Shown one piece after another: positions 852 to 39,342 of a stretch of 64,000 bases of DNA. Source of the DNA: Spongiactinospora rosea (GTDB lineage: Bacteria > Actinomycetota > Actinomycetes > Streptosporangiales > Streptosporangiaceae). A program made the translations under genes and the position numbers. How positions within the stretch are numbered: the first letter of the stretch is position 1; each line of letters starts with the position of its first letter. The notes beneath the pieces were generated by a model. The model worked only from the letters and a program-made list of their open reading frames with translations, did not search any database and was not told the origin of the DNA. The stretch lies in the NCBI RefSeq assembly GCF_003315795.1, contig NZ_QMEY01000001.1:434001-498000 (forward strand). The letters run 5' to 3'.

Positions 852-1390
852 GCCGGCACGTCGCACCGGGTTACCAAGCGTGCACCTCGTATCCGTCGGA
901 GCGGGTCAAGCCCGCCTCGACGCGCCTCCCGCGGCTGGTCGCGCGTGGGTGCCCGGCGGCCGTGCCCGGACAATCAGTCCGTGACACCTTTCTACGTCGG
1001 ATCTGCCCTGATGGGAACCCCCTGAAGCAAGACCTTTACCAATCATCTTCACCAAATTGTGACACAATCGGATGAATCCCCCGTATCTCCTCATATACCT
1101 CTTTGGTGTGAGATCGCGATGGGCGGCGGGGGGATGGGTGGCCGGGTGTGCTCACGCTGAGTGAGCGATATGGGGCTTCGGTCGGATGTCCGGATTCGGC
1201 AACGGAGAGTAGTTGTACGGTTACGTCGAAAAAACTTGGCGGAAATTGCAGATTGCTCCTCGACGAAACTCAAGTGGATCGGGCAGCATACGTGGGTATC
1301 TCCCTAAACTGGAGTGAGTGTGCACGGGGACGCATTGCATGTCCCTTGCCATGCCCTGGTGAAGTGTTGAAAGCTTTCTTCTGAAACGGG
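852..1390. other. Intergenic stretch, no gene accepted
   Basis: No open frame here has convincing high-GC third positions. A 78-codon frame at 1148-1384 (GTG start) ends just before two strong hairpins, which could mean a short transcript or small RNA is made here. Its codon use is mixed and I recognise no family. Bases 1040-1110 are relatively AT-rich and could hold a promoter, but I see no clear -35/-10 pair. Confidence 0.35.
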
Positions 1391-1391
1391 A

Positions 1392-1457
1392 CCGGCTCTA
1401 CCCCCCCGGAGCCGGACCGGTTGGCGACCCCCGCTCTCCCCCCCGGCGGGGGTCGCC
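1392..1457 (+). terminator. Two tandem hairpins
   Basis: The first hairpin pairs CCGGCTC (1392-1398) with GAGCCGG (1409-1415). The second pairs GGCGACCCCCG (1423-1433) with CGGGGGTCGCC (1447-1457), an 11-bp perfect stem. Tandem stems like these are typical actinobacterial terminators and imply transcription arriving from 1148-1390. Confidence 0.55.
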
Positions 1458-1599
1458 CCTTTGCCCCCCAAAGCACACCCCGCCTCGCCGCCCCGGTCCG
1501 CACCACCCCAGCCCCCCTCGCCGAGGACGCGTAACCCCCCGGCTCGCACCAAGATCGCAGGCATCACTTCCCGGGCCCCCGCGCGCGCCTAGCAGTCAC

Positions 1600-33424: not shown

Positions 33425-33724
33425 ATGGGCGATTCACCGTCGATGCCGACACCGACATGGCGCAGGGCGATCAAGGTGCGTCCGCTGCCCGACTACCTTC
33501 GTGAGCGCTGGGACGAAGAAGAGGCCGAACTCGACCGACTCCTCGGCATGAGACGTCCGCAGCGCTACATCCGCATCCACGGCGAACGCATGAGGGCCGA
33601 CATCTTCGCCAAACGGAAGATCCTCGCCGAGTGCGAGAACATGGACAGCAACCTCGCCCGCCTCGTGCTCACGCTCTTAGCCGAGCCGTACGCCGACCGG
33701 CTTGACGGACCGGCGCGCTCATGA
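33425..33724 (+). CDS. DUF6221-related phage protein
   Basis: A 99-residue protein. ATG with TTGGAGGG upstream. Its end, DIFAKRKILAECENMDSNLA then LVLTLLAEPYADRLDG, parallels the DUF6221 pattern (AKRRIL...LLALPYxDxPDY). It appears to be a shortened paralogue. The 120 bases before it are less GC-rich and hold no gene. Confidence 0.6.
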   Translation: MGDSPSMPTPTWRRAIKVRPLPDYLRERWDEEEAELDRLLGMRRPQRYIRIHGERMRADIFAKRKILAECENMDSNLARLVLTLLAEPYADRLDGPARS

Positions 33725-34029
33725 GCGAGCGGGACCGGCTGGCCGTGGTCAAGGCCAGCCTCAAGGAGCAGCGCGACCTCGTGGTCTGCCTGGAACCGCG
33801 CGCGGACCATGACGCGTGGTGGCGACAGCATCTGCGCGGACTTCGCGGCGCGATCGAAGCCAGCGAGGCGCACCTCGCGGTGTATGAGCGGCTCGCCTCG
33901 GAGGGCGAGCGGGCGTCCGCGGCGGCGGCCTTGAGCCTGCTCGAACTGGAGCAGGCCGCGATGAAGGAATGGCACGATATCGTCGTCAGCCGTCCCGGGT
34001 GGGCGGCTGGCCCGCCAGTCGGCCGATGA
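33721..34029 (+). CDS. Helical phage protein
   Basis: A 102-residue protein. Mostly helix (ERDRLAVVKASLKEQRDLVV, then GLRGAIEASEAHLAVYERLA). It closes the tiled plus-strand operon. Function unknown. Confidence 0.55.
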   Translation: MSERDRLAVVKASLKEQRDLVVCLEPRADHDAWWRQHLRGLRGAIEASEAHLAVYERLASEGERASAAAALSLLELEQAAMKEWHDIVVSRPGWAAGPPVGR

Positions 34030-34106
34030 CCGGCCCGCTTCCTCAAGGTGGCCACCGATGACTAAGCGGGTTCTACAGTGAAACCAGTTGTAGCTGCGAG
34101 GAGATC

Positions 34107-34322
34107 ATGACCGAGGTCCGCGTCAACATCACCGTGGGGGACACCGCGGAAGTGACGACCCCCAGGCATCCGTACACCGCACCACTGCGCATCCCTGCCG
34201 CCCGGATCGCACAGCAGGCCGGCCTGCCCGCATCCGAGTTGCCAGGCCGCCGCTTCACCGTGGCGGCCCTGACCGATCAGGACGCGGACGGCTTCACGCT
34301 CCTGGACGACCCCCGCGTCTGA
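34107..34322 (+). CDS. Small protein, paralogue of the gene at 36536
   Basis: 71 residues. ATG preceded by GCGAGGAGA. It contains EVTTPRHPYTAPLRIPAARI then GLPASELPGRRFTVAAL. The minus-strand protein at 36536-36787 shares this pattern (EVATPFHPVADPLRVPAVEL, LPGRRFRAAV). A CTACA/TGTAG inverted repeat (34073-34093) lies just upstream. Its 3' end overlaps the converging gene by 46 bases. It is part of the duplicated cassette described in the findings. Confidence 0.65.
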   Translation: MTEVRVNITVGDTAEVTTPRHPYTAPLRIPAARIAQQAGLPASELPGRRFTVAALTDQDADGFTLLDDPRV

Positions 34323-34759
34323 GAGGTCCCGCGCGGTCGGCCGCCGCCGACGCCCCGCCCCGGCCGTGCGGCGATGACGCGGTCCAGAGTGGACCGCTTG
34401 ATGTGGGCCACACCGTACACGTCCACCCAGCCAGGCAATCGGCCCACTGCGCGGTCGTGCCGTACGGCCGCGTAGGTGACCCCCAGGGCGTCGGCGGCGT
34501 CCTGTTCATCGAGCAGGTCGCCGGGGTGCTCGCGTGTGCCCTGGGGCCAGACCGGCAGCTCGCGGCCGTCGCGTACGGCCTCGACTTGAGCGCGGTCGTA
34601 GAGCAGCGTCCGGCGGCCCTCGTTCAGTGGGCGCAGGCCGAACGCCTTGGCGCCGCCCTTGTTGCTCCAGGTCTTGTGGCTGATGCCCAGGATCTCGGCG
34701 GCGCCCCGCCCGTCCACCACGTCTCTTCCGTTCGGGATCACCTCTAAACGATACCGCAC
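34277..34759 (-). CDS. HTH DNA-binding protein of the duplicated cassette
   Basis: A 160-residue protein from GTG. Two MerR/excisionase-like HTH units are visible: VVDGRGAAEILGISHKTWSN (about 14-33) and LLDEQDAADALGVTYAAVRH (about 82-101). The tail is Arg/Ser-rich. The operator-like inverted repeat AAGCAGTT-N9-AACTGCTT lies 75-100 bases upstream of its start, between it and the plus-strand unit at 34891. It could be the regulator of that unit or an excisionase-like factor. Confidence 0.65.
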   Translation of the reverse strand: MRYRLEVIPNGRDVVDGRGAAEILGISHKTWSNKGGAKAFGLRPLNEGRRTLLYDRAQVEAVRDGRELPVWPQGTREHPGDLLDEQDAADALGVTYAAVRHDRAVGRLPGWVDVYGVAHIKRSTLDRVIAARPGRGVGGGRPRGTSQTRGSSRSVKPSAS

Positions 34760-34832
34760 TCATGCCCCTTTTGGGAAGCCGAGAGAGTCGCCGGATCTGG
34801 TCACACGGATGCGTACCGAATCCAAAACTTAT

Positions 34833-34884
34833 AAGCAGTTAGTGCCCGAAACTGCTTCCATTCGGGGTGTGAATGCGGTATAGT
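34833..34884 (+). promoter_or_regulatory. Operator-like inverted repeats and promoter
   Basis: AAGCAGTT (34833-34840) and AACTGCTT (34850-34857) are perfect arms 9 bases apart. CCCGAA (34845-34850) and TTCGGG (34861-34866) interleave with them. The promoter TTCCAT (34856-34861), 17 bases, TATAGT (34879-34884) points to a start near 34891, exactly at the hairpin leader. Confidence 0.55.
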
Positions 34885-34890
34885 TTTTCT

Positions 34891-34949
34891 TGTCGGAAGG
34901 GGGTCGGAACCCCACCCGACAGCAGGTTGAAAACTCAAGAGAGGAGATC
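34891..34949 (+). promoter_or_regulatory. 5' hairpin leader, copy 1
   Basis: It starts at the predicted transcription start. GTCGG (34892-34896) pairs with CCGAC (34916-34920). GGGGT (34900-34904) pairs with ACCCC (34909-34913) around a CGGA loop. GCAGGTTGAAAACTC and a GAGAGGAG ribosome site follow. The same element occurs inverted at 36384-36447 with compensating changes in the stem. Confidence 0.7.
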
Positions 34950-35312
34950 GTGGTGGAAGACCACGACCCGCTGGCCTGGCTGGGTGCTCTGCTCATGAGC
35001 GCCTACGCGACACTCGGCAAGTTCATGTGGAGCCTGCCGGTGCCCACCGGGCTCCCGGTCCCCGAAGGGCCGGACGGCCCCGACGCCGTAGAGGCGATCA
35101 CCAGGGCGCGAGCTGCCTTGCGTGACCAGCCCATGGACGACATCACCAGGTCCATGATCGACCGGATGTGCCTCGAATGGCTCACCGTCCTGGACCTGGG
35201 CGCTGTGGTCCGCATGGCGGGTCCTGATCCGTGGCGGCTGGAGGCGATGTCCTACGGGATCGACCGCTTCTTTGCCTTGGCGGAAGTCGTAGGCCCCCGG
35301 CTCGAAGAGTGA
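34950..35312 (+). CDS. Helical protein with leader copy 1
   Basis: A 120-residue protein. The GTG at 34950 follows GAGAGGAG. Upstream in-frame codons read the leader itself, so the longer start at 34890 is rejected. It is alpha-helical: LAWLGALLMSAYATLGKFMW, then ITRARAALRDQPMDDITRSM, then LEAMSYGIDRFFALAEVV. The helix pattern resembles the 36006 product on the other strand (MERTRTLIESEPAD, FACDMAIIHISLAHLV). It is divergently related, probably a duplicated gene. Function unknown. Confidence 0.65.
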   Translation: MVEDHDPLAWLGALLMSAYATLGKFMWSLPVPTGLPVPEGPDGPDAVEAITRARAALRDQPMDDITRSMIDRMCLEWLTVLDLGAVVRMAGPDPWRLEAMSYGIDRFFALAEVVGPRLEE

Positions 35313-35321
35313 GCCGTCGCT

Positions 35322-35344
35322 GCCCCGGGCTGACTGCCCGGGGC
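35322..35344 (+). terminator. Terminator hairpin, copy 1
   Basis: GCCCCGGGC, 5-base loop TGACT, GCCCGGGGC: a 9-bp perfect stem just after the 34950 gene. The same arms appear at 35972-35994 after the opposing gene. Confidence 0.75.
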
Positions 35345-35492
35345 GGCACTCCTGGTCTCCGCCCTTGGGTGCGCGGGCATGAAGAGGGCCGGCGCGACGG
35401 CACCCCGAGAGGTGCTGTATCGGAAGTCGCGCCGGCCCGCAGGTCGAAACTCCGAGGAGTTCAACGTCATCGTATCGCTCGCCCGCGCGGTG

Positions 35493-35888
35493 TTACCCCG
35501 ATCGGTGATACCCGCGCCGCTTGCCGAGGGCCGAATTTACTGTGCTGCGCCTCCATCGCTTGACGCCGTGCTCGATCTCGTCGGGCGCTGGCCATCGCCC
35601 GCGCGAGATGTCGGCGTCGATGGTGCCTCGGGCCAGACCGGTGTGGTCGGCGATCTGGGCGATGGTGAGCAGATCGTCCGGGCGGCCCTCGGCCACTGGA
35701 GCGGCCCGCAGGAACACACGGCGCACCAGCTTGTCCACGGCGTCCGCGTCGTACTCGGCCCACCGGCCGCGTCGCCCGCGCGGCTTGGGCCAGTCCGGGT
35801 GACGCGTCCACGTCTTCTGGACGGTCGTCAGCGCACGGTCGTACTTCTCGGCGATCTCCGGGGCGATGATGCCCGGCGCGGGTACCAC
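35493..35888 (-). CDS. HTH DNA-binding protein
   Basis: A 131-residue protein. The GTG at 35888 with GAGAGGAG upstream is preferred over an ATG 30 bases earlier. Two HTH-like units: GIIAPEIAEKYDRALTTVQK near the start and LLTIAQIADHTGLARGTIDA in the second half. It lies between the two leader units and shares their orientation on the right side. It is a likely regulator of the cassette. Confidence 0.6.
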   Translation of the reverse strand: MVPAPGIIAPEIAEKYDRALTTVQKTWTRHPDWPKPRGRRGRWAEYDADAVDKLVRRVFLRAAPVAEGRPDDLLTIAQIADHTGLARGTIDADISRGRWPAPDEIEHGVKRWRRSTVNSALGKRRGYHRSG

Positions 35889-35971
35889 GTGCGGACTCCT
35901 CTCGCGAGTGATCAACATGGCGGACCCGTCCGGTTCTGGGTGGCCCGCCTTCCTTCTGACTCCACCGCCCG

Positions 35972-35994
35972 GCCCCGGGCTGGCTGCCCGGGGC
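35972..35994 (-). terminator. Terminator hairpin, copy 2
   Basis: Arms GCCCCGGGC and GCCCGGGGC around TGGCT, the same stem as at 35322. It follows the stop of the minus-strand 36006 gene. Confidence 0.75.
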
Positions 35995-36005
35995 CGGTGA
36001 GAGGG

Positions 36006-36383
36006 TTACGCCTCCTCTTCGCCCGTCAGGACGAGGTGTGCCAGGCTGATGTGGATGATCGCCATGTCGCAGGCGAAGATGACAGCGTCATACCGCCAGT
36101 CGCGCATCTGATCGAGCCTGGCGAGGGACATGACGTCGAACGCCATCATGATGTGCAGCACCGCCAAGTCGAGTTCCCCGAGGGCCGCGTGGTCGGCGGG
36201 CTCGGACTCGATCAGGGTCCGCGTCCTCTCCATCCCGTCCATGAACTCCTCGATCGTGGAGCCGACCGCGAGGTGGGGGAGCTGGATGGGGAGGGGCAGG
36301 AACGTGAGTGCCTGCGTGAGGTGGTTGAGCGCGTGGGAGATGGCGGCTGCCATCTCGCCGTGGCGCTCGGGGTTGTCAGCCAT
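36006..36383 (-). CDS. Helical protein with leader copy 2
   Basis: A 125-residue protein. The ATG at 36383 lies after GAGAGGGG. It is helical: EMAAAISHALNHLTQALTFL, then STIEEFMDGMERTRTLIESE, then CDMAIIHISLAHLVLTGEEE. It is distantly like the 34950 product in length, order of helices and charged hinge. Function unknown. Confidence 0.65.
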   Translation of the reverse strand: MADNPERHGEMAAAISHALNHLTQALTFLPLPIQLPHLAVGSTIEEFMDGMERTRTLIESEPADHAALGELDLAVLHIMMAFDVMSLARLDQMRDWRYDAVIFACDMAIIHISLAHLVLTGEEEA

Positions 36384-36483
36384 TGCTGACCCCTCTCTGT
36401 GGAGTTTTCAACCTGCCGCCGGTCGGGGTTCCGACCCCCTTCCGACACCCCTTACATTACATGGTTGGAGTAGTGATTTGCAA
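36384..36483 (-). promoter_or_regulatory. 5' hairpin leader, copy 2, with promoter
   Basis: On the minus strand: TTGCAA (36483-36478), 18 bases, TAATGT (36459-36454), start near 36447. The leader then has GTCGG (36446-36442) pairing with CCGGC (36422-36418) through one G-U pair, and an inner GGGGT/ACCCC around CGGA. GCAGGTTGAAAACTC follows, as in copy 1. The outer stem differs from copy 1 at one arm but still pairs, which supports a conserved RNA fold. Confidence 0.68.
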
Positions 36484-36535
36484 GCTTTCGGGCATGCTGA
36501 ATCCACCGAAACGGCCCGGCCTCACAACCGCGGGA

Positions 36536-36787
36536 CTAGCTCTGGACCGCGGTGATCCGCTCCCCGTCCACCGCGGCCCGGAATCGCCGCCCGGGAAGGG
36601 AGGCGACCACCAGGCCGAGCATGGCCGCCAACTCCACCGCGGGCACCCTGAGCGGATCGGCCACAGGATGGAAGGGTGTCGCCACCTCTGCGTGCGGCCC
36701 GAAGAGCAGCGACACCCGGGCATCCACCCAGCGCGGCGGCGCGAGCCCCTCGCGCGCCGCGTCCGGCCCCGCCTCCCAGTCGTTCAC
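36536..36787 (-). CDS. Small protein, paralogue of the gene at 34107
   Basis: 83 residues from GTG overlapping the upstream gene. It shares EVATPFHPVADPLRVPAVEL and VVASLPGRRFRAAV with the 34107 product. It is the second gene of the minus-strand series 37302, 36784, 36536. Function unknown. Confidence 0.65.
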   Translation of the reverse strand: MNDWEAGPDAAREGLAPPRWVDARVSLLFGPHAEVATPFHPVADPLRVPAVELAAMLGLVVASLPGRRFRAAVDGERITAVQS

Positions 36788-37305
36788 TCTGACACCGCCT
36801 TCACCGCTTTCGGCCGACCACCCTTGCGCTCCCAGGTCGCCGCCCAGCGCCGCACGGCGGCCCCCGGCCAGATCGCCCCGGCCGCCAGCGTCTGAAGGGG
36901 CTGCGGGAAGTCGTCACGCCGACTGAGCTGATCGGCGCGCTGGCGGGTCACGTCGAGCAGCTCGGCGATCTCGCGCACGCCCATAAGCTCCGGGGGCGTC
37001 TGCCGGAGTTCTTCATCGAGCTCGTCCTCCGGGAGAGCCTCGACCCGCACCGCGCGGGCCGACACGCCGAACTCGCGCAGCGCGGCCGTCACCTCCCGCA
37101 CGGCCGCGTCGATCGCCTGCCGGACGGTGGATCCGTCGATGCTGAGCTGGATGCTCACCCGGTCGGCAACCTGCCTGCCCGCCGCATAGGCCGCGCCGGC
37201 GGCGGGGTGGCGCGCCGCGAGGCGCTCGCGCAGGTGCGCGTCAAGCGCCTCGCTGTAGTCGGCGCCGGTGTCGGCGTCGATCCGCACACTCCACACGGGC
37301 CTCAT
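36784..37305 (-). CDS. HTH protein following the HicA-like gene
   Basis: A 173-residue protein. Residues 1-90 are alpha/beta (VWSVRIDADTGADYSEALDA, then STVRQAIDAAVREVTAALRE). A C-terminal HTH (MGVREIAELLDVTRQRADQL) precedes a basic tail KGGRPKAVKAV. The start overlaps the HicA-like stop. This is the place a HicB antitoxin would occupy, and a DNA-binding C-terminus is seen in many antitoxins, but the sequence is not a standard HicB. Confidence 0.62.
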   Translation of the reverse strand: MRPVWSVRIDADTGADYSEALDAHLRERLAARHPAAGAAYAAGRQVADRVSIQLSIDGSTVRQAIDAAVREVTAALREFGVSARAVRVEALPEDELDEELRQTPPELMGVREIAELLDVTRQRADQLSRRDDFPQPLQTLAAGAIWPGAAVRRWAATWERKGGRPKAVKAVSE

Positions 37306-37511
37306 CCCCTCGCTGGCGGCCAGATGAACCCGGCTCGCCGTAGTACGGCTATGGCGTTTCGGAGACCGCGATCATCACCCGGCGTGGCCGCCAGGGTTCC
37401 GATTAGGCGGCTGTCCTTGTAGACCTTCCAGTGGCCCGAGCGGCCCATTGTCACCTCGAAACCTTGCCGCCGTAGCGCCTTGATGATCTCTGCGATCTCC
37501 TTGCGGCTCAT
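37302..37511 (-). CDS. hicA: HicA-like mRNA interferase
   Basis: 69 residues, the usual HicA size. It reads SRKEIAEIIKALRRQGFEVT, then MGRSGHWKVYKDSRLIGTLA. The His of SGHWKVY is at the place of the HicA catalytic His in the GSH motif. The dsRBD-like alpha-beta-beta-beta-alpha order fits. ATG 37511 has AAGGGAAAGGG upstream. Frames running on to 38234 are shadows. It would cut mRNA unless neutralised, probably by the next gene. Confidence 0.72.
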   Translation of the reverse strand: MSRKEIAEIIKALRRQGFEVTMGRSGHWKVYKDSRLIGTLAATPGDDRGLRNAIAVLRRAGFIWPPARG

Positions 37512-37616: not shown

Positions 37617-38159
37617 ATGTACGAAGTCGGCGCAGAGGTCACCTACCAGGGCTCTATCGAGCATCTTCACGGCCAGATCTTTACCGTCGTGGCGCACTGC
37701 TGCGGGGGAGAGCGCTACCGGCTCCAGGGCCGCAGCGAGGCTCTGCGCCACGCCCGCCCCGCCAGCGTCGCCCGCTACGCGGAGCCCATCGAGGCCCTTG
37801 CCGTCCTGGAGCGGGCCATCGCCGCAGAGCGCCCGGTGGTGATCACCTACATCGCGGCGGACGGCGAGTGGACGACCCGCACGATCGAGCCGTACGAGCT
37901 GGACGTCACCGCGCGCGGGCACCTGATCGTGCGCGCGATGGACCGGCTCAGGCGCGCGGAGCGCACCTTCCGCCTCGACCGGATCGACAGCCTTACGCAG
38001 TACCCCGGCGTGTTCCTGCTGACCGCCGCCCGCATGGAGCGTGACGCGCTGGCCCGTATCCGCGCCGAGATCGCCGAAGTCGCGTCGGCGGGCTTCGGCG
38101 GCTACGACGGCTACGGCGCGATGCGCTGGACCCCCGAGTGTCCTGTTCCCGCTCTTTGA
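37617..38159 (+). CDS. WYL-domain protein
   Basis: A 180-residue protein with GGAGG seven bases upstream. The core RPVVITYIAADGEWTTRTIE, then PYELDVTARGHLIVRAMDRL and RRAERTFRLDRIDSL (about 75-125) is a WYL fold, which binds nucleotides or nucleic-acid ends and is common in phage and defence regulators. There is no N-terminal HTH; the first 60 residues form a small beta domain. It could be a ligand-sensing partner of the divergent hicA/HTH unit. Confidence 0.72.
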   Translation: MYEVGAEVTYQGSIEHLHGQIFTVVAHCCGGERYRLQGRSEALRHARPASVARYAEPIEALAVLERAIAAERPVVITYIAADGEWTTRTIEPYELDVTARGHLIVRAMDRLRRAERTFRLDRIDSLTQYPGVFLLTAARMERDALARIRAEIAEVASAGFGGYDGYGAMRWTPECPVPAL

Positions 38160-38166
38160 TCCCCAC

Positions 38167-38191
38167 GCCGGGCGGCATCCGGCCGCCCGGC
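38167..38191 (+). terminator. Hairpin between WYL and DUF932 genes
   Basis: GCCGGGCGGC (38167-38176) pairs with GCCGCCCGGC (38182-38191) over a 5-base loop. Probably a terminator of the WYL gene. The downstream gene has its own site CGAAGGGAA. Confidence 0.6.
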
Positions 38192-38214
38192 TCAACCCTC
38201 GAAGGGAATCCGCG

Positions 38215-39342
38215 ATGACCATCACCGACGTCAACGAACAGCTCTATCAGCAGCGGCGGACCGCGATCGAGTCCGGCCGGTGGACCCGCCGCGATGACGG
38301 CTCCTATGTCGCCTGGGACCGGGCCGAGGTCCTCGGGCGTGAGGGGCTGGACATGACCACCGGGCAGGCCGCGCTCTACACCTCCACCCCCGCGTGGCAC
38401 GGTCTCGGCAACGTCATCCCCGGCGGCATCTCCGACATCGACGAAGTGCTCCGCCTGGGCGGGATCGACTTCGACGTCGAAAAGCGCGACGTCCGGTACT
38501 CGTTCATGGGCGATGCCGACGCCGTGCCCGCGCTGCGCACCATGCCCGGCCAGTACGTCACCGTCCGCTCCGACACGGGCGCGGCCCTCGGTGTCGTCGG
38601 CTCGCGTTACGAGGTCATCCAGAACCGCGAGCTGTTCACCTTCCTGGAAGACCTGGTGGATCAGCACGGCGTGATCTGGGAGTCGGCGGGCGCGCTGCGC
38701 GACGGACGGCGGGTATTCGTGTGCATGCGCCTGCCGGAGAACGTGATCATCGACCGGGGCGGCCTGGCCGACGAGATCGTCCTGATCCTCTCGGTGATCA
38801 ACTCTCATGACGGGCGCGGCACGGCCGAGGCCGTCCCGTCCGGGTGGCGGATCGTCTGCGCCAACACCGAGCGGTTCGCCCTGCGCGACGCGGTGTCCCG
38901 TTGGAGCATCCGCCACACCTCCGGCGCGCTGGGGCGGATCGAAGAGGCACGCCGCGCCCTCGGCCTCACCGTTGAGTACGCCCACGCGTTCGAGGAGGAG
39001 GAGACCGCACTCGCGCGCACGGACATCGCCCTGGACGAGTTCCACCGCGTGATCGCCGACCTGTGGCCGGTGGACCGGGACGCGTCCGCGCGCACCACGG
39101 GCATGGCCGACCGCCGCCGCGAGACCCTGACCGCGATGTTCGAGGGCGAGTCGGTCCGCGTCGGCCGTACCGCTTATGCGGGGGAGCGGGCGATCACGGA
39201 CTACCTCGACCACGTCGCGCCGCGCCGCCCCGGCAAGACCATGACGGAGGAGATCGCCCGGGCGACCGCGCTCATGGAAGGCGCGGACGACGCCATCAAG
39301 ACCACGGCCCACAAGAGGCTCATGACCCTGGTCCGCCGCTGA
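38215..39342 (+). CDS. DUF932 phage/plasmid-like protein
   Basis: This 375-residue protein matches the DUF932/TIGR03299 family carried by phages and plasmids. Seen: STPAWHGLGNVIPGGISDID, then VGSRYEVIQNRELFTFLEDL, then GGLADEIVLILSVINSHDGR and VPSGWRIVCANTERFALRDA. Its role is unknown, but the family often lies near replication or recombination genes. It is followed by a strong hairpin. Confidence 0.85.
   Translation: MTITDVNEQLYQQRRTAIESGRWTRRDDGSYVAWDRAEVLGREGLDMTTGQAALYTSTPAWHGLGNVIPGGISDIDEVLRLGGIDFDVEKRDVRYSFMGDADAVPALRTMPGQYVTVRSDTGAALGVVGSRYEVIQNRELFTFLEDLVDQHGVIWESAGALRDGRRVFVCMRLPENVIIDRGGLADEIVLILSVINSHDGRGTAEAVPSGWRIVCANTERFALRDAVSRWSIRHTSGALGRIEEARRALGLTVEYAHAFEEEETALARTDIALDEFHRVIADLWPVDRDASARTTGMADRRRETLTAMFEGESVRVGRTAYAGERAITDYLDHVAPRRPGKTMTEEIARATALMEGADDAIKTTAHKRLMTLVRR

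Follow-up and report, generated by a model that had tools for sequence, protein, structure and literature searches.

Two small genes in a prophage of the soil actinomycete Spongiactinospora rosea face each other, and both are preceded by what appears to be the same hairpin. The locus raises the question of whether these hairpins belong to a genuine regulatory RNA and, if so, what such an RNA would control. The 64 kb stretch of DNA analysed here (the window; G000:C1:434001-498000 of a 9.8-Mb genome) represents a prophage, whose landmarks are listed in Table 1 together with the features of the locus. An earlier note on this DNA, made from the sequence alone, had proposed an inverted pair of leader-RNA units, perhaps acting as a toxin/antidote, a phage-phage exclusion or a counting device.

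Leader and genes of the prophage cassette

Both facing genes (34950 on the plus strand and 36006 on the minus strand) indeed open with the same 5' hairpin, as the earlier note had described: a 53-nt inverted repeat (34891-34943 and 36395-36447, 89% identity) is located in front of them, and both copies are predicted to fold, with TGTCGG..CCGACA or TGTCGG..CCGGCG stems around GGGG-GUCGGAA-CCCC. The layout of each leader is a -10 box, 5-7 nt, the hairpin, a 15-nt box and a Shine-Dalgarno (SD) sequence, the latter two forming the string GCAGGTTGAAAACTC-nn-AGAGGAG. The box GCAGGTTGAAAACTC is exact in both window leaders and has no other site in the 9.8 Mb of the genome, even when one mismatch is allowed. 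At the gathering cut-off of Rfam 15 the sole match in the window was a 6C RNA, the cassette elements matching no family, and a relaxed-threshold Rfam search of 33600-37500 gave no credible match.

The proteins encoded by the facing genes are small, helical and distantly alike, as had been proposed, since they share 22% identity over 96 aa, match the same PHROG and include one for which a four-helix bundle is predicted (pLDDT 92). Foldseek gave no significant match for this model, and its best VIA Z of 8.2 lies within the range of any helix bundle. The helical proteins are acidic (pI 4.4-4.6) and the HTH proteins basic (pI 10.4-10.6). The HTH gene between the units, the flanking HTH genes (34277 and 36784) and the paralogous pair 34107/36536 (47% identical) reported previously are all present. 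The PHROGs matched by the helical and the 71/83-aa proteins, phrog_33636 and phrog_34071 (PHROGs v4), are of unknown function and carry no RNA element. A tblastn search of the helical and 71-aa proteins against 50,697 phage records yielded no match, and neither the helical nor the small proteins matched Pfam, NCBIfam or PADLOC. As no toxin, antitoxin or defence family was found in the cassette, a weak match of the HTH protein to 'mad1' being the only one of this kind, the toxin/antidote, exclusion and counting functions suggested earlier are not borne out.

The claim that both genes end in the same terminator holds for the repeat itself, a GC-rich hairpin conserved in both units, while its designation as a terminator is no more than putative, since the hairpin lacks a U-tract and neither copy was called by terminator prediction. 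A DUF932 gene (38041-39342, plus strand) adjoins the cassette, as is also the case in Spongiactinospora gelatinilytica (G002) and in genomes G109, G333, G379 and G381.

Table 1. Features of the cassette and landmarks of the prophage in the window
Feature	Position	Strand	Details
-10 of unit A, TATAGT (predicted)	34879..34884	+	hairpin starts 6 nt later; sequence
Leader A	34891..34945	+	hairpin 34891-34921, box GCAGGTTGAAAACTC 34922-34936, SD; covariance model R1 76.6 bits; fold
Helical protein A, 120 aa, phrog_33636-like	34950..35312	+	GTG start; E 1.5e-5
GC-rich hairpin after gene A, 23 nt	35322-35344	+	repeat comparison
Second element (type 3), unit A	35386..35470	+	covariance model R2 79.2 bits, part of seed
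71-aa partner of unit A, phrog_34071-like	34107..34322	+	E 2.8e-10; beside most leaders
HTH protein, unit A cassette	34277..34759	-	
HTH protein between units, 131 aa	35493..35888	-	from GTG at 35888, longest ORF start 35918; phrog_597 E 5e-8
-10 of unit B, TAATGT (predicted)	36454..36459	-	TTGCAA -35 lies 18 nt upstream; sequence
Leader B	36393..36447	-	hairpin 36417-36447, box 36402-36416, SD; covariance model R1 69.3 bits; fold
Helical protein B, 125 aa, phrog_33636-like	36006..36383	-	four-helix bundle model; E 3.5e-7
GC-rich hairpin after gene B, 23 nt	35972-35994	-	96% identity with the hairpin after gene A
Second element, unit B, diverged (UCAGAA, CATGTTGATCACTC)	35888..35975	-	R1 18.9 bits, E 0.002; R2 16.2 bits, E 0.5
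83-aa partner of unit B, phrog_34071-like	36536..36787	-	paralogue of 34107; PHROG match
HTH protein, unit B cassette	36784..37305	-	
6C RNA (Rfam RF01066)	1386-1461	+	62.6 bits; located upstream of the prophage's integrase end
Integrase gene	5424		prophage landmark
Repressor-like gene	7757		prophage landmark
RecE-like gene	14111		prophage landmark
RecT-like gene	15160		prophage landmark
Replication initiator gene	17899		prophage landmark
Terminase large subunit gene	47063		prophage landmark
Portal gene	49060		prophage landmark

Distribution of the leader and selection on its stem

A search for relatives with a covariance model (R1), built from 11 leaders and run on 343 genomes of the family Streptosporangiaceae, established that the leader is not restricted to the window: 44 copies were found in 22 of these genomes, representing 12 of 68 genera. 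Outside the window's own genome, a sample of the entire class yielded two weak matches only, while several IMG/VR viral contigs also carry the leader. The inverted arrangement seen in the window proved inessential, as the leader is found elsewhere singly, in tandem, divergently or in three copies. As judged by sequence comparison, the essential unit of the cassette comprises the leader, a small helical gene and a second RNA element described below, and the two RNA elements recur together in dozens of related prophages and phage-like plasmids.

The helical family (~125 aa, phrog_33636-like) is the commonest gene behind the leader, and the 71-aa protein (phrog_34071) and HTH genes lie beside it in most loci. 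In several loci (L103-L105, L092:8398-8928 and L068:4762-5217) an unrelated second family follows a divergent leader. Its predicted b4a-b4a fold (model mead6e53ffa89) has human PURA as its best VIA match (Z 4.9, 100 residues, rmsd 3.7) and no significant match in Foldseek, and this family is possibly a faintly PUR-repeat-like nucleic-acid binder. Beyond the family, a linear Micromonospora plasmid with a terminase carries three full leaders, two helical genes, the 71-aa partner and a second element (43.7 bits) ahead of an HTH gene, while a DUF3846 gene follows one of its leaders. Because unrelated families (b4a-b4a and DUF3846) also follow leaders, the leader must move independently of the coding sequence.

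A related promoter and hairpin (GGTATAGTTnTTCT-TGTCGGAA..) was encountered on Streptomyces plasmids (82% identity, E 1e-5) at 93 places on 13 plasmids, with up to 19 copies per plasmid; these include NZ_CP108098.1, CP108397.1, NC_023316.1 and NZ_CP061283.1 (L116-L118, L132). On one such plasmid 12 copies are located within 50 kb, all of them 59-65 nt before annotated start codons, and in the 50 kb read the leaders carry a different box, CACACGCACACC..AAAGGG. These promoter-hairpins are interpreted as a dispersed regulon on plasmids of ~120-138 kb.

The position of the hairpin is well conserved. A -10 hexamer precedes it by 5-7 nt in 43 of 50 leaders, compared to 8.1±2.6 for shuffled upstream sequences, from which transcripts are predicted to begin with the hairpin itself; a start codon is found 3-12 nt past the SD in 49 of the 50.

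The earlier note had suggested selection on RNA structure from arms which differ between the two window copies and yet still pair. The pairs are indeed kept where the 3' arm has changed, but the changes are one-sided only (U-A to U-G), and the two window copies do not support the suggestion. Nor did the first 11 leaders contain any double-sided stem change. Once relatives were added, double-sided compensation became apparent: 62 copies, in an alignment that was fitted to the covariance model, contain 32 double-sided cells against 8.0±2.5. Since MAFFT misaligns the 3' arm of the leader, an alignment-free test was also employed, in which arms paired better with their own partners than with permuted ones (1/5000), while RNAalifold predicted nothing from the mixed leader alignment A5. 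The non-Watson-Crick cells of the outer stem comprise 42 G-U as against 9 A-C, 27 of the G-U cells lying in one column, and this excess is moderate evidence in favour of an RNA of this strand rather than a DNA palindrome. The earlier note had named a leader confined to this DNA and stems not conserved in relatives as outcomes that would refute it; the 44 leaders and their covarying stems contradict both. Its proposal of a regulatory cassette that has been duplicated is upheld, as is that of a structured leader, hitherto undescribed, on which selection acts.

A second RNA element with a matched loop and box

Both units contain a second RNA element, absent from the earlier note, ~450 nt downstream of the leader, which brings the window to four elements in 64 kb. 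In unit A, this element consists of a 13-bp stem (35386-35398/35426-35438), an inner hairpin, UAUCGGAA, the box GCAGGTCGAAACTCC and an SD-like sequence; no ORF follows, and CATCGTA takes the place of a start codon. The diverged element of unit B directly precedes the start codon of the HTH gene between the units. Elements of this family (R2) are present in nearly every leader locus, with a same-strand leader 320-510 nt upstream in 31 of 31 pairings, from which the L068 element was left out as it has only a divergent leader. The stem is very stable (mean z -4.4), and double-sided changes affect 10 of 19 pairs, compared to 3.4±1.3 in shuffles, in a MAFFT alignment of nine sequences that was not fitted to structure.

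In at least nine loci the second element runs directly up to the start codon of an HTH gene. In others it is not followed by an ORF, yet the box, the SD and a CATCGTA-like remnant are retained (e.g. L012:10355-10442 and L015:10065-10145), and in some of these loci terminator-like hairpins occur ~110 nt further on. An odd minimal element, TGTTCGGAACA plus the box, precedes a small zinc-finger-like protein at L084:5224-5258 (minus strand).

Loci differ in their loop triplet (UNNNA) and in their box, while the second element agrees with its own leader. In a first, hand-made reading 15 of 16 were matched, a result reached in 0 of 20000 permutations for the loop and likewise for the box. Automatic extraction found the same loop core as in the own leader in 22 of 29 cases (expected 5.1±1.9; 0/20000), although this extraction is crude and several of the mismatches are, by eye, extraction errors. 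Among loci outside those that had prompted the matching idea, the agreement was 10 of 14 (2.1±1.3 expected). True mismatches with the own leaders are found in the HTH-linked second elements of this genus (the window, minus strand, and L014, plus strand). Rare box variants are common to both elements, namely TTCAC (L078), GTTTGAAAACAC (L075) and GCAGTTTGAC (Micromonospora), and two adjoining cassettes at 6823-8391 of L092 (IMGVR_UViG_2867988698_000004) have separate matched pairs, GTGGCAG/GCATCTTGAC and GTGGAAC/GCAGGTTGAC. In L092, a divergent leader beside the second unit carries that unit's code.

The matching points to a trans-acting, cassette-specific factor that would read both elements. 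Recent duplication explains it poorly because the two elements differ in stem sequence and architecture; part of it could stem from gene conversion acting on the short loop and box, or from a common descent of the elements at one locus.

Several other accounts of the loop and box were set aside. A loop-box pseudoknot through UCNG-UUGA pairing is possible in the TCGG, TCAG and TCGA types and impossible in the TGGC or TGAG types, and kissing of two identical loops would require self-complementary loops, which these are not. The box appears to resemble a 16S rRNA stretch, GGUUAAAACUCAA, but many GACAACTC/AAAACAC variants break the likeness, which was taken as chance. A relationship with Y RNA and Ro60 was likewise discarded, as just two of six genomes have a TROVE gene close to the cassette; the gene is absent from G063 and lies on another contig in the genome of the window. 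The TROVE/Ro60-like genes observed are L016:11814-13532 (G104), next to the cassette, and G109:C23:28595-29548, near it.

Possible modes of action and known systems

Taken as a whole, the locus resembles a system of gene control that is specific to each cassette and hitherto undescribed. Its best explanation, to which we assign a probability of roughly 0.4, is a pair of translational, perhaps autogenous, operators with the same specificity on one mRNA. The leader hairpin, box and SD would constitute a 5'-terminal operator ahead of the helical gene, while the long-stem RNA past this gene, ending in the same box and SD and often placed at the start of the HTH regulator, would be the second. A cassette-specific trans factor would bind both elements through loop and box and thereby open or close the SD, such that the helical and the HTH gene would be translated in concert; in the second element the CUCC end of the box could pair with the GGAG of the SD. 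In loci lacking an HTH gene behind it, the second element may serve as a decoy or a 3' end. Most likely the cassette itself encodes the factor, implying autogenous control. The helical protein is the natural candidate by linkage, yet its acidic charge argues against it, and the basic HTH proteins, or the PUR-like protein where present, are alternatives. Several points speak against the operator pair: SD pairing is hardly above shuffles in the second element (mean z -0.83) and absent in the leaders (z -0.06), where an SD-occluding hairpin was consequently rejected; the protein always encoded between the elements is acidic, unlike an RNA binder; the second element, SD included, persists without a start codon behind it; and the loop matching has the possible other sources named above and fails to be exact in the two HTH-linked elements of this genus.

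It is also possible, if rather less probable, that these are orthogonal RNA-recognition cassettes, each encoding its own factor for a private loop-plus-box code borne by two architecturally unrelated RNAs of one message, the first of them at its 5' end; such codes would allow several cassettes to operate in one phage without cross-talk. Antitermination, with the 5' leader modifying RNA polymerase (in a put-/nut-like or LoaP/NusG-type manner) to pass the GC hairpin and the second element serving as a further site before HTH or late genes, would suit the 5'-terminal hairpin, the GC hairpin conserved between gene and second element and the location ahead of HNH/terminase genes in several phages. 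We nevertheless regard it as unlikely, since the conserved box is joined to an SD and start codon at a near-fixed distance, the GC hairpins lack U-tracts and a factor-free put-like site leaves the loop matching unexplained. Somewhat more doubtful still is a role in mRNA stability or processing, whereby a host RNase or chaperone would cut or bind a protective 5' hairpin and a structured downstream end: the terminal hairpin, and second elements at times without an ORF and with terminator-like hairpins beyond, are in keeping with it, but a general host factor explains neither the cassette-specific loop and box variants nor the two orthogonal pairs of L092.

Two further readings are less probable again, both to the same degree. 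DNA-level operators or recombination sites for an HTH or other DNA-binding protein, transcribed incidentally, would agree with the several HTH genes per cassette, the promoter-proximal location and the view of the cluster K ESAS as a promoter/operator (PMC11373665); against this, the hairpin lies downstream of the -10, the box is asymmetric and ends in an SD, and the departures from pairing in the stem are as one would expect of an RNA, which is moderate evidence in view of the concentration of G-U cells in one column. A second element acting chiefly as a trans-acting, CsrB-like decoy that titrates the factor off the leaders, its HTH linkage being secondary, would account for the shared loop and box, the very stable stem and its retention without an ORF, but with a single copy in each unit it would make a poor sponge, and in at least nine loci the element sits exactly at an HTH start.

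Comparable known systems include the autogenous translational operators of phages, such as the MS2 coat and the T4 gp43 and RegA sites, in which a hairpin with a specific loop lies at or beside the SD; the cassette differs in presenting one specificity in two architectures and in varying that specificity among cassettes. The HK022 put RNA and the dual hairpins bound by LoaP are likewise structured RNAs with which phage or operon transcripts begin, or which lie close to the 5' end; the cassette differs from them in its SD-linked box and its matched downstream element. Two structured RNA families, previously undescribed and found together, are added to actinobacterial phages and phage-plasmids; their natural specificity variants make binder and mechanism testable through loop and box swaps, and they could yield orthogonal translation controllers for actinomycetes.

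The closest known kind is the SAS/ESAS system of cluster K mycobacteriophages (PMC3203893, PMC11373665), and Microbacterium phages of cluster EF have motifs of a similar sort (PMC7302621). SAS is a 13 bp sequence, GGGATAGGAGCCC, just before the start codons of non-structural genes at 11-19 copies per genome, and ESAS is a 17-bp inverted repeat that overlaps with a promoter of the SigA type (PMC3203893, PMC11373665). The likeness to the cassette is evident in a conserved phage motif joined to the SD ahead of start codons, frequently preceded by an inverted repeat, carried by unrelated genes and with a consensus that varies among phage groups. The cassette nevertheless falls outside this system by sequence, by where its repeat lies relative to the promoter and by copy number. 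Its box and SD string has AGGAG alone in common with GGGATAGGAGCCC; the ESAS repeat contains the promoter, whereas the cassette hairpin starts after the -10, inside the predicted transcript; and copies number 1-5 per cassette, the window having its four elements and two exact boxes genome-wide. The variable recognition loop and the long-stem downstream partner further distinguish the cassette, while the Streptomyces plasmid promoter-hairpins, with their many copies, are nearer to SAS/ESAS in layout. The comparison may possibly help to explain the role of the start-associated repeats of actinobacteriophages, which has been a puzzle since 2011.
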